Positions 55,938 to 61,125 of a stretch of 64,000 nt of DNA are shown piece by piece. Every line of letters starts with the position of its first letter. Within the stretch, counting starts at the first letter, position 1. The DNA lies in the NCBI RefSeq assembly GCF_017052655.1, contig NZ_JAFIDC010000001.1, forward strand, positions 1,116,001-1,180,000. Reading direction: 5' to 3'. This DNA comes from Acholeplasma equirhinis. Lineage in GTDB: Bacteria > Bacillota_I > Bacilli_A > Acholeplasmatales > Acholeplasmataceae. Under the pieces are notes generated by a model. That model was not told the DNA's origin. It did no database searches and worked only from the letters and a program-made list of their open reading frames with translations. A program made the position numbers and the translations under genes.

Positions 55938-56300
55938 TTATTTATATTCTGCATATTCTAGCACTATAAATGCAATTGCGAATTCCTCAGTATGTGTGAT
56001 TGTTATATGAGAAATCAATTCCTTTGTATATTTTGATTCGATATATGGTGCACCATTTTCGTCATTCAAAATTTCAAAATCTTTATAGTTTGCAGTTAAA
56101 TCACCTTTTTTAAAACATTTAAATAGTGCTTCTTTAGCTGCAAAACGACCAGCAAGAAATGTCAGTTTTCTTAACTCATTTGTGATGGTTTTAAAAACTA
56201 CGCTTTCCTTTGGAGATAGTATACGTTCTGCAAACTTTTCAATACCAATTTCTTTGATTCGTTCAAGTTTGACTAAATCTGTACCAATCGATTTGATCAT
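55938..56300 (-). CDS. acpS: Holo-[acyl-carrier-protein] synthase
   Basis: Transfers phosphopantetheine from CoA to acyl carrier protein. 120 residues; IGTDLVKLERI (5-15), FLAGRFAAKEALFK (48-61) and ISHITITHTEEFAIAFI are the AcpS motifs. Overlaps whiA by 4 bases. Confidence 0.95.
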   Translation of the reverse strand: MIKSIGTDLVKLERIKEIGIEKFAERILSPKESVVFKTITNELRKLTFLAGRFAAKEALFKCFKKGDLTANYKDFEILNDENGAPYIESKYTKELISHITITHTEEFAIAFIVLEYAEYK

Positions 56301-57227: not shown

Positions 57228-58139
57228 TTATTCTCCTAATTTTTCTAAATATCTTAAAATACTTTGAACAGCAATTGCACCATCAGATACTGCGGTTACA
57301 ATTTGTCTAATTGGTTTGACATTCACATCTCCTGATGAGAAAAGACCAGGAACTGAAGTAGTCATATCATCTTTTGCAATGACATAACCATATGGGTTGG
57401 TCACACCTAATCCATCTAAGAATTTGGTTACTGGAACTAATCCAATATACTCAAAAGTACCTTCAGCAGGAATTTCAATTTCTTTACCATCTTTTTGAAC
57501 AACAACTTTTTCTAAAGCATCTTTTCCTTTAAATGCTTTAACTTTAGCATTAAAGATAAAGTCAACATTTGGCATCTTTCTTAAGTGGTCTTGAGCTTTT
57601 GGATCCGCTGTTAAATGATCAAGATTTTGAACGACTGTAATCTTTTTAGCAATATTACTTAAAAAGATAGATTCTTCAACAGCTGAGTTACCTCCACCAA
57701 TCACAACAACTTCTTTATCTTTAAAGAGAGGACCATCACAAATTGCACACCAACTAATACCTTTTTGGGTAAAGTCTGCTTCACCTTCAACATTTAAAGT
57801 TCTTGGTACTGCACCAGTTGCAACCAGTACTGCACGTGCTTCATACGTATTAAATTCTGTTTTAATAATCTTTTTTTCACCATCGATTGAAACAGATAAA
57901 ACCTCTTCCCAAATCACCGGTACTTCGAGTTCTAATAAATGTTCAAACATGGATTGTGCAAGTTCAAACCCTTTAACCTTTTTAAATCCTGGATAATTTT
58001 CAACTTCTGCAGTATTTAAAATTTGTCCGCCTGGTGCATTCTTTTCAAAGACTGCAACATTGAGGTTTGCACGTTTTGCGTATATCCCTGCAGTAATGCC
58101 TGCAGGACCTGAACCTATAATCAGTAAGTCGTATAACAT
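57228..58139 (-). CDS. trxB: Thioredoxin reductase
   Basis: 303 residues. FAD-binding IIGSGPAGITAGIYAKR (7-23), CAIC active site (131-134), GGGNSAVEE (148-156) and FSSGDVNVKPIRQIVTAVSDG. The usual HRRxxxRA NADPH element is replaced by QNLDHLTADPKA (171-182), so NADPH use is not certain. Located between the lgt-ppaX fusion and whiA. Confidence 0.9.
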   Translation of the reverse strand: MLYDLLIIGSGPAGITAGIYAKRANLNVAVFEKNAPGGQILNTAEVENYPGFKKVKGFELAQSMFEHLLELEVPVIWEEVLSVSIDGEKKIIKTEFNTYEARAVLVATGAVPRTLNVEGEADFTQKGISWCAICDGPLFKDKEVVVIGGGNSAVEESIFLSNIAKKITVVQNLDHLTADPKAQDHLRKMPNVDFIFNAKVKAFKGKDALEKVVVQKDGKEIEIPAEGTFEYIGLVPVTKFLDGLGVTNPYGYVIAKDDMTTSVPGLFSSGDVNVKPIRQIVTAVSDGAIAVQSILRYLEKLGE

Positions 58140-58148
58140 GTTATTCCC

Positions 58149-59684
58149 CTAGAGTATGTATAGTAATTTTTCTAAATCATCAATCATATAGTCAGGACGT
58201 GCAGCCATTACTTTATCATAGTGAATAGAGTAAGATACGCCAACACTTTTGACACCTGCTGCTTTTGCAGCTTCAATATCCATTGAGTGATCACCAATAT
58301 AGATTGCATTTGCTGGATGTGCTTTTAAACTTTCCAAAGCTTTCATAATTGGTTCTTTATCTGGTTTGTGCTTAGTGACATCATCACTACCAATAATGAC
58401 ATCTATAAATTGTAATAAGTCATTTTGTTCTAACCCAAGCGCACAAACTTCTTTTTTCTTGCTAGATACAATACCAATTAAGTAACCTGCATCTTTTAAT
58501 GCCGTTAAAGTTTCTTTTGCATGAGGATACGCATTGACACCTTTTTCATGGTTAGCAAGATTCGTCTTTCGATAGAATTCAATCATTTCTTCAATCTTTT
58601 TAGGATTTGGTTCATACCATGAAAATGAGTGTTGTAGTGTTGGTCCAACAAAAGCTTTTAATTCATCTTCTGTAAATGTTTTACTTGGGAAGTATTTTTT
58701 AAAGGTTTGACGGATGTTATCGTAAATGAGATCGATAGTATCAAGTAAAGTACCATCTAAATCAAATAGAACAACCTTTTTACCATAGTCACTGTAATAA
58801 CCTTCATCAACTTTCATTAAACGTTTTCCAAAGTATACGACAAGCCCACCTAAAATAAAGAGGACGGAGGTTGCAATCGAAACCGGAATTCCAAAGAGCA
58901 TTAATGGTTCATCAACACCACTTTGCATTCTTAAGATTTCAGTTGGAATACGACCAACACCATACCATAATAAGTAGAACGCTAAGATATCACCAAGTTT
59001 AAATGTTCTTTTTCTTCTTAAAATTAAGATAATGACTAAACCAATTAGATTCCAAACACTTTCATAAAGGAAGGTTGGATGACGATAAGCACCATTGATA
59101 AACATTTGATCTTTAACAAATGGAGGCAGCCAATCTGCATTATCTAAAACAGGTCCGTATAATTCACGGTTCATGAAGTTACCCCAACGGCCTAATGTTT
59201 GACCAATTAAAAATCCAGGTGCAACAACATCATAAATAAACCAATGACTAATTTTCTTACGTTTCGCAAAAGGAATTATGACTAAGAATGTCACGATAAC
59301 GGCCCCATGAATACCTAATCCACCTTCTGTGAAATTAAGCATACGTAAGAAATCACCATTATAACGATCTAGGTTAAATAGCACATACCAAAGTCTAGCT
59401 CCAATAATCGCGAGTGGCACACAGAGTAATAAACCATCCCATAAAATGTCAGGATTCTTACCCGCTTTTACAAACTCTCTATATGCTAAATATCCACCAA
59501 ATGTAATCCCAGTTAAAATAAATACTGCATACCATTGAACTTCCAAGCCTAGTGCTTCAATTCTAATTGCAGTTGAATCATAAGGTGCAACACCACTTGT
59601 TGCAATTAGTACAAGTAACATAAAGATAATGGAAAATCCAATATATGTATAGTAGCTTTCATATTTTTTAAAACTATTCTTCAT
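58149..59684 (-). CDS. lgt: Fusion: prolipoprotein diacylglyceryl transferase (Lgt) and HAD phosphatase (PpaX-like)
   Basis: 511 residues. Residues 1-295 are Lgt, with seven hydrophobic segments, the signature GLGIHGAVI (about 123), and GRWGNFMNRE (166-175). Residues 303-511 are a HAD phosphatase with LFDLDGTLLDT (nucleophile Asp near 308), SSKKKE and GDHSMDIEAAKAAG. In Bacillus, lgt and ppaX are separate genes following hprK; here they are one frame. ATG 59684 has AAGGAG 6 bases upstream. The domain would attach to the membrane. Confidence 0.9.
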   Translation of the reverse strand: MKNSFKKYESYYTYIGFSIIFMLLVLIATSGVAPYDSTAIRIEALGLEVQWYAVFILTGITFGGYLAYREFVKAGKNPDILWDGLLLCVPLAIIGARLWYVLFNLDRYNGDFLRMLNFTEGGLGIHGAVIVTFLVIIPFAKRKKISHWFIYDVVAPGFLIGQTLGRWGNFMNRELYGPVLDNADWLPPFVKDQMFINGAYRHPTFLYESVWNLIGLVIILILRRKRTFKLGDILAFYLLWYGVGRIPTEILRMQSGVDEPLMLFGIPVSIATSVLFILGGLVVYFGKRLMKVDEGYYSDYGKKVVLFDLDGTLLDTIDLIYDNIRQTFKKYFPSKTFTEDELKAFVGPTLQHSFSWYEPNPKKIEEMIEFYRKTNLANHEKGVNAYPHAKETLTALKDAGYLIGIVSSKKKEVCALGLEQNDLLQFIDVIIGSDDVTKHKPDKEPIMKALESLKAHPANAIYIGDHSMDIEAAKAAGVKSVGVSYSIHYDKVMAARPDYMIDDLEKLLYIL

Positions 59685-60621
59685 CATCTTCTCCTTTAGA
59701 TGCTGCTTTTAATGCAACGTTTTTAACCAGTTGTTCTGCGGCATTATATCCTAAGTACTTTAACTTTTGATTCATTGCAGCAGATTCCACTAATGTCGCA
59801 TTATTTCTACCAGGAAGGATCGGAATAGTAATCTTTGGAATTTGAGTTTCAAAGATTTGATAACTTTCTGTTTCTAATCCTAAACGATCATAGTTTTTCT
59901 TATCATCCCATTGCTCAAGTTCAATGACTAATCTTACTTTCTTGTTTTCACGGAATGCACCAGCACCTAACATTTGAACTACATCAACAATCCCAATACC
60001 TCTAATTTCTAAGTATTTTTCTAAGATTTTTGGTGCTTGTCCAATAATAATACCAGGTGCAGTTTCATAAACATCGACACGATCATCAGCAATTAAGATA
60101 TGATTTCTTTTGATTAATTCAAGTGCTGTTTCTGATTTACCAATCCCACTCTTACCAATAATTAAAGTACCCATACCATAAATATCAAGGAGTGTCCCAT
60201 GAATAGTTTTTCTTGGAGCGAGTGCACTTCTTAAATATGCATAAAGTTTTGAGTTTACCGGGGTCGTACGCTCTTTAGATTTAAAGAGCGGTACACCATA
60301 AGTATTTCCTAAATCAATAAAGTATTGTGGTACATCAACATTAACAGAGAAAATCACACATGGTGGTTGATGTTTTAAAACAGCTTCAACCCTTTCCTTT
60401 TGAGTTTTTTCATCAAGTAATTTTAAGAAATGAGATTCCTTAGAACCAATTAATAAAATACGGTCGCTATCATAAAAATCTAAGAACCCTGCGAATTCTA
60501 CCCCAGGGCGTGCAAGCATTTCAACAGATACCCTACCTTCAATACCTGCTTCACCTGCAATTAAAGTTAATTGTAACTCTTTAGCTATCTTTTTAACAGA
60601 TATACTTCTTTTTTCATCCAT
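59674..60621 (-). CDS. hprK: HPr kinase/phosphorylase
   Basis: 315 residues. Phosphorylates and dephosphorylates HPr at serine. Walker A GKSGIGKSETALEL (156-169), ADDRVDVYE, signature LEIRGIGIVDVVQMLGAGAF. Overlaps the fusion gene, the conserved hprK-lgt-ppaX order. HPr itself is not in the window. Confidence 0.95.
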   Translation of the reverse strand: MDEKRSISVKKIAKELQLTLIAGEAGIEGRVSVEMLARPGVEFAGFLDFYDSDRILLIGSKESHFLKLLDEKTQKERVEAVLKHQPPCVIFSVNVDVPQYFIDLGNTYGVPLFKSKERTTPVNSKLYAYLRSALAPRKTIHGTLLDIYGMGTLIIGKSGIGKSETALELIKRNHILIADDRVDVYETAPGIIIGQAPKILEKYLEIRGIGIVDVVQMLGAGAFRENKKVRLVIELEQWDDKKNYDRLGLETESYQIFETQIPKITIPILPGRNNATLVESAAMNQKLKYLGYNAAEQLVKNVALKAASKGEDDEE

Positions 60622-60624
60622 GTG

Positions 60625-61125
60625 TTAAACTCCTTTCTGAAAGAGACGTGATTTTCTAATATAGGTTGTTAAGAGTAGGCGGAACGCCATAAAACTTAAA
60701 GTAAAAATAACAATATTTGATGGGTTTGTTAAGAATGTAAATCCAGGTACTATAAGCGAAACAATAAAGAATAAAGATAAATTCAAGATAAAGAATATGA
60801 ATCCAAAGGTTTGAATCAAAATTTTCCATGCAAATCGAATCAAAATTAATTTAATAATGATTTCCATGACTGTATAAAGTATTAACCCAATAAAGAAACT
60901 CTCAAAACTATGCACTTCTATCAACTTATAAAAAGTACTGTATATACCTATGATGACTGCACTTGAAAGTAAATTCACGATAAGTGTTAATAATATATGA
61001 AGTGAAAAATTATCATGCATAATAAAACCCAATTGATATCCAATGGATGTACCTTTTTCTTTACTTAGGATATTAATTTGTTTTTTCTTTTGATCATCTT
61101 TTTGATCATTATCTTTATTATCCAT
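60625..61125 (-). CDS. Four-helix membrane protein (YvlD/phage-holin-4-like)
   Basis: 166 residues. A hydrophilic start (about 1-38) followed by four helices, with the middle and end (FFILNLSLFFIVSLIVPGFTF) resembling YvlD. In Bacillus yvlD is also directly upstream of hprK. Function unknown. Confidence 0.55.
   Translation of the reverse strand: MDNKDNDQKDDQKKKQINILSKEKGTSIGYQLGFIMHDNFSLHILLTLIVNLLSSAVIIGIYSTFYKLIEVHSFESFFIGLILYTVMEIIIKLILIRFAWKILIQTFGFIFFILNLSLFFIVSLIVPGFTFLTNPSNIVIFTLSFMAFRLLLTTYIRKSRLFQKGV

Follow-up and report, generated by a model that had tools for sequence, protein, structure and literature searches.

The window, by which we mean the whole 64,000-nucleotide stretch of Acholeplasma equirhinis DNA that was analysed, carries on its reverse strand a gene in which lgt is fused in frame to a gene for a PpaX-like phosphatase of the HAD superfamily. 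This lgt-HAD fusion is real, and lies in a cluster with the order uvrA - (holin-like) - hprK - lgt - HAD - trxB - whiA - acpS. The features of the locus are these:

60625..61125 (-): small membrane protein, Phage_holin_4_2-like (Pfam), a conserved neighbour upstream of hprK
59674..60621 (-): hprK, HPr kinase/phosphorylase (TIGR00679), sharing 14 bases with the start of the fusion
59691..59695 (-): AGGAG, resembling a ribosome-binding site and preceding both ATGs of the fusion
58149..59687 (-): gene joining lgt to a ppaX-like HAD, 512 aa when read from the first ATG (ORF list, Pfam, NCBIfam)
59586..59642 (-): hydrophobic helix added at the N-terminus, residues 16-34, before the usual first Lgt helix (hydropathy)
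58833..59552 (-): Lgt domain, residues 46-285 (Pfam LGT, TIGR00544, alignment to E. coli Lgt 5azb)
58779..58832 (-): junction, residues 286-303, the end of the last Lgt helix followed by a short basic-to-polar linker
58155..58778 (-): PpaX-type HAD domain, residues 304-511 (NF009804, HAD_2, catalytic motifs)
57228..58139 (-): trxB-like gene, downstream of the fusion and unfused (TRX_reduct, 339.9 bits against a cut-off of 343.45)

The ORF listing gives one frame at 58149..59687 (-) with 512 codons before the stop, and its product matches two Pfam domains, LGT at residues 46-285 (E 1.8e-59) and HAD_2 at residues 306-484 (E 4.8e-53), which bears out the original prediction of a single-frame fusion. 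That prediction had set the frame at 58149-59684, with 511 residues; this is the product of the second of two in-frame ATGs, at 59684, while the first extends the gene to 59687 and the protein to 512 residues. The calculated mass is 58.2 kDa rather than the 57 kDa proposed. The frame is the same under genetic code tables 11 and 4 and so holds no recoded stop; a recoded stop inside the fusion was considered and ruled out, since table 4 needs none. Separate synthesis of the HAD half is possible in three of the 90 fused genes described below, in which the linker contains an in-frame start together with a Shine-Dalgarno-like stretch; the linker in the window has an ATG without such a stretch. The fusion is probably made at full length and left uncut. 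A two-sequence AlphaFold model had a mean pLDDT of 50.5, and therefore lends the fusion no structural support.

Upstream, the 3' end of hprK overlaps the start of the fusion, so that the gene does lie right after hprK, as had been proposed, and HprK is intact as judged by its model (TIGR00679, 363 bits, cut-off 240). Downstream and on the same strand follow the trxB-like gene, whiA and an acpS-like gene at 55938-56300, which we take to be acpS. The Phage_holin_4_2-like membrane protein is a constant upstream neighbour of hprK or lgt in loci of families f1 and f4 (families, genera, genomes and loci are given by our own handles).

Domains of the fusion

The Lgt half passes the curated cut-off of TIGR00544 (189.2 bits against 118.9) and contains the Lgt signature GRxGNFxNxExxG as GRWGNFMNRELYG, with an arginine equivalent to R239. 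Aligned in E. coli numbering, equivalents of R143, N146, E151, E202 and R239 were found in all 147 rows. The fusion in the window resembles E. coli Lgt (5azb) in having the equivalents of R143, E151, R239 and H103, the last being His at residue 127, and differs from the usual Lgt in its additional N-terminal helix and its C-terminal HAD domain of ~210 residues. The helix is present in 37/37 f1, 7/7 f4 and 4/45 f2 rows. Transferase activity is a prediction for this protein, made from its sequence. The H103 position itself varies across families, being Gln, Val, Met, Tyr or Asn in many rows (Gln in 42/45 f2, 14/30 f22 and 3/3 f17 rows, Val in two f11 rows), although a passage of PMC4728403 calls the HGGL motif functionally important in E. 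coli.

The HAD half has the motif set of HAD superfamily subfamily IA (DxDGT, S/T, K, GDxxxD), here DLDGT at 309, SSK at 408, K441 and GDxxxD at 465. The nucleophile, second Asp, Ser/Thr, Lys and GDxxxD are kept in every row that covers them, from 90 fused and 45 separate proteins; gaps occur in three rows, of which L162 and L176 reach contig ends and L017 is a broken HAD frame. The active-site residues that the original prediction had described as retained in both domains were thus located by alignment, and its description of the HAD as PpaX-like agrees with the NCBIfam scan, where PpaX (NF009804) is the nearest HAD family and outscores the other HAD models in each of the 11 proteins scanned. 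Ten of these fall under the curated PpaX cut-off of 218 bits, including the window's own at 211.6, seven other fused proteins at 136-213 and two unfused ones at 164 and 171; the sole protein to pass is the unfused L111 (277.4 bits). Compared with free-standing PpaX of other Bacilli, the HAD in the window shares the best model, the position behind lgt and the motif residues, and differs in being fused, in scoring below the cut-off and in belonging to a kind that is kept where HprK and HPr go undetected. Pyrophosphatase activity is the first candidate, and a putative one.

The C-terminus of Lgt comes after a basic stretch, GKRLMK, and its other cytosolic loops are likewise basic, which by the positive-inside rule would place the HAD domain on the cytosolic side of the membrane. 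Between the last helix and the HAD domain the linker has a median length of 14 residues in f1, 18 in f2, 7 in f22, 27 in f9 and 17 in f11.

Distribution and origins

A wider search, as the original prediction had suggested, found the fusion in the genus of the window (g1), its sister genus (g2), a second family of the order and three more families of the class. The search sets comprised 88 genomes of the family, 160 of the order, 395 of the class and 392 of the phylum, the class and phylum sets overlapping. Within the family, the fusion is one open frame in 10/10 genomes of g1 (8) and g2 (2), the nine others being 52-65% identical to that in the window. Outside these two genera, the matches listed among the 88 genomes include no single frame covering both domains, and g11 (29 of the 88, all small) has no match to the fusion. 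Other genera of the family have lgt and the HAD gene as two genes in the same order, abutting or overlapping.

Among the rows listed in the class and phylum sets, fused frames occur in f1, f2, f22, f9 and f11 only. All 45 loci read in f2, the second family of the order, are fused, and eight further f2 genomes (G089, G090, G100, G102, G104, G121, G123, G125) show matches that cover the two domains in a single frame; for G127 and G140, also of f2, the order search lists no Lgt match. The loci read elsewhere were fused in 30/30 cases in f22, 3/3 in f9 and 2/3 in f11, the f22 figure omitting five genomes with weak matches (G220, G242, G307, G377, G389), so that fusion throughout f22 is not claimed. 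Altogether, 147 Lgt loci were read, one of them under two names (L033 and L004 are one locus, counted once): 90 are fused (f2 45, f22 30, f1 10, f9 3, f11 2), 45 have lgt and the HAD gene as separate genes and 12 lack a HAD next to lgt, figures that give no prevalence since the loci were picked by likeness to a fused query. With 90 of the 147 loci fused and the frame open in all ten g1 and g2 genomes, the fusion is more than chance. An apparent case in f17 (G448, with a listed open frame of 506 residues) was rejected because its locus shows two frames. No other pair of cluster domains was found in one frame among 131 hprK-lgt, 79 HAD-trxB, 23 trxB-whiA and 18 whiA-acpS neighbours. No description of the fusion was found in the open-licence literature, a scope outside which most subscription journals lie; protein databases may list the architecture.

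Where relatives are unfused, their lgt and HAD frames are for the most part overlapping or abutting. By parsimony, six changes between fused and unfused states are required on the best topology of a tree built from 69 joined Lgt and HAD rows, which were picked by hand from loci with both domains. A single clade of all fused forms is rejected (p 5.7e-59), as is one uniting f22 with the fused f11 (p 2.4e-5), and hence the fusion has more than one origin; a single clade of the fused f1 and f2 is not rejected (p 0.096 with G142, 0.163 without), which leaves the number of origins uncertain. Six is a parsimony count and no proof, and fissions could replace some of the fusions. In the Lgt tree, the Lgt of G303 (f19; L112 and L113, from G303 and G297) falls inside the fused f2. 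There lgt is followed by a frame that is presumably ftsZ, with no HAD, and it is probably a transferred copy that lost its HAD part.

HprK, HPr and pyrophosphate

HprK, HPr and PpaX form a regulatory set known from Bacillus, and the original prediction held that the fusion tethers the enzyme removing pyrophosphate from HPr phosphorolysis to a membrane protein. The window's genome has the other members of this set, namely HprK, encoded upstream of the fusion, and two HPr genes with the serine motif IMGVMS/ILGLMS; the HAD therefore co-occurs with HprK and HPr here, and in seven other genomes it does not. Of the two HPr genes (L034, L035), one has GLHATLAA and lies near pgk- and tpi-like frames, the other has GLHARPAT.

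HprK was searched for by PF07475 in 80 genomes (55 positive) and by TIGR00679 in 32 (5 positive), and HPr by PF00381 in 23 (11 positive). The 50 HprK-positive genomes with a read lgt locus comprise 24 with fused and 20 with separate genes and six without a HAD at lgt; the 15 HprK-negative ones comprise six, three and six respectively. HPr was found in 10/10 HprK-positive genomes tested (G458 being counted as positive from its locus L089) and was likewise undetected in 12 of 13 HprK-negative ones, the exception being G020, which is 86% complete. In seven genomes, 95-99% complete, both HprK and HPr were undetected and the HAD, with its active-site residues intact, is either fused (G408, with 6% contamination, G238, G310 and G292) or adjacent to lgt (G014, G015 and G345), so that relative to the Bacillus set the link between Lgt and HAD outlives HprK and HPr. 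Two less complete HprK-negative genomes, G134 (72%) and G444 (65%), are also fused. Both HprK models also miss in the B. subtilis genome used as a control, where hprK is known and the HPr search does match, and genome-wide HprK misses could therefore include false ones; in the HprK-negative loci, hprK is also missing from its normal position.

Pyrophosphate may have other uses and fates in this organism. A family I pyrophosphatase is encoded separately in the window's genome, in which no DHHA2 match was found. Two phosphofructokinase genes lie back to back (L138 and L139, G000:C1:87145-88993). L138, with GGDGS and PGTIDND, is presumably of the ATP type and L139, with GGND and PKTIDND, of the pyrophosphate type, by a motif rule that we assume to apply. 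For A. laidlawii, pyrophosphate-dependent phosphofructokinase activity is cited among the references of PMC3942410. With such an enzyme, pyrophosphate probably serves as a substrate besides being a waste product, and a purely waste-removing role for a tethered pyrophosphatase becomes less obvious.

The claim about HPr phosphorolysis is thus weakened by the seven genomes that keep the HAD without detected HprK or HPr, by the six HprK-positive genomes without a HAD at lgt, by the score of 211.6 against 218 and by the family I pyrophosphatase. A link to HprK may still hold in genomes that have HprK, that of the window included.

Explanations for the fusion

The reading that we prefer, with a probability of about 0.6, is that co-transcribed neighbours have merged repeatedly and that a cytosolic hydrolase of small phosphate compounds is thereby tethered to the membrane, its substrate being putative and HprK and HPr dispensable. 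The merger would start from lgt and a ppaX-like HAD gene in tandem, their frames usually abutting or overlapping, and loss of the boundary in several lineages would leave one protein. Its Lgt half would transfer diacylglycerol from phosphatidylglycerol to prolipoproteins at the outer face, while the HAD half, attached to the last Lgt helix, would reach into the cytosol and hydrolyse a small phosphate compound, for which pyrophosphate is the first candidate. Fusion would couple the amounts and the location of the two activities and would need neither HprK nor HPr. The frame and its conservation, the intact residues of the two domains, the recurrent switching between states and the retention of the HAD where HprK and HPr go undetected are observed; the uncut full-length product, the cytosolic side, the substrate of the HAD and the benefit of fusion are putative.

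A neutral merger, in which overlapping genes lost their boundary several times without any functional link, is possible, though we favour it distinctly less. One small indel would suffice where unfused frames abut or overlap, both domains are otherwise ordinary, and a fusion without function would be accounted for equally well in this way; yet the hprK-lgt and HAD-trxB neighbours never fuse (the former may be barred by topology), and the fused state is maintained across whole genera and families. That the product is an artefact of assembly or reading, or a protein always cut in two, is very improbable, given the same frame in all ten genomes of two genera, with nine of them at 52-65% identity to the window's, and in other families besides. 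It also seems unlikely that the HAD is PpaX itself, held at the membrane through Lgt and clearing the pyrophosphate that HprK releases by phosphorolysis of HPr-Ser-P. PpaX is the top HAD model throughout the 11 proteins, hprK lies directly upstream in most loci (the 131 hprK-lgt neighbours), and HprK and two HPr genes, each carrying the serine motif, occur in the window's genome; against this stand the four fused and three adjacent HADs in genomes without detected HprK and HPr, the 6/50 HprK-positive genomes with no HAD at the read lgt locus, the ten proteins below the PpaX cut-off, and the family I pyrophosphatase and pyrophosphate-type phosphofructokinase of the window's genome.

We regard as doubtful, too, the proposal that the HAD serves the lipid path feeding Lgt, acting on pyrophosphate from CDP-diacylglycerol synthesis, on phosphatidylglycerol phosphate or on glycerol 1-phosphate released by Lgt. 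It would explain why the HAD stays with Lgt after HprK loss and why lgt-HAD is the sole junction of the cluster to fuse, and to do so more than once, and through the linker the HAD would sit against the inner side of the membrane. On the other hand, lipid phosphates are improbable substrates for a capped HAD of subfamily IA. PMC4728403, in its part on topology, locates both the catalytic site of Lgt and the head group, phosphoglycerol, outside, so that a cytosolic HAD would have no access to glycerol 1-phosphate, which is disfavoured as a substrate. In a fuller form, which we consider no less speculative, Lgt-HAD would be an enzyme of two domains acting in the lipoprotein lipid path, whose HAD hydrolyses a pyrophosphate or phosphate intermediate of phosphatidylglycerol supply and so drives lipoprotein maturation, PpaX having the same role beside lgt in other Bacilli, instead of or besides that with HprK.

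As for the tethered hydrolase, the recurrent joining of this pair of neighbours hints at a common task, and the persistence of the HAD with Lgt in genomes missing HprK and HPr suggests that the usual explanation for PpaX may be incomplete; recurrent fusion makes the role of PpaX testable. Lgt is of interest as a drug target, for which a natural soluble C-terminal domain offers a handle for expression and assays. The fused proteins of f11 (L100, L101) have ~665 residues, with ~180 extra N-terminal residues ahead of the Lgt match.
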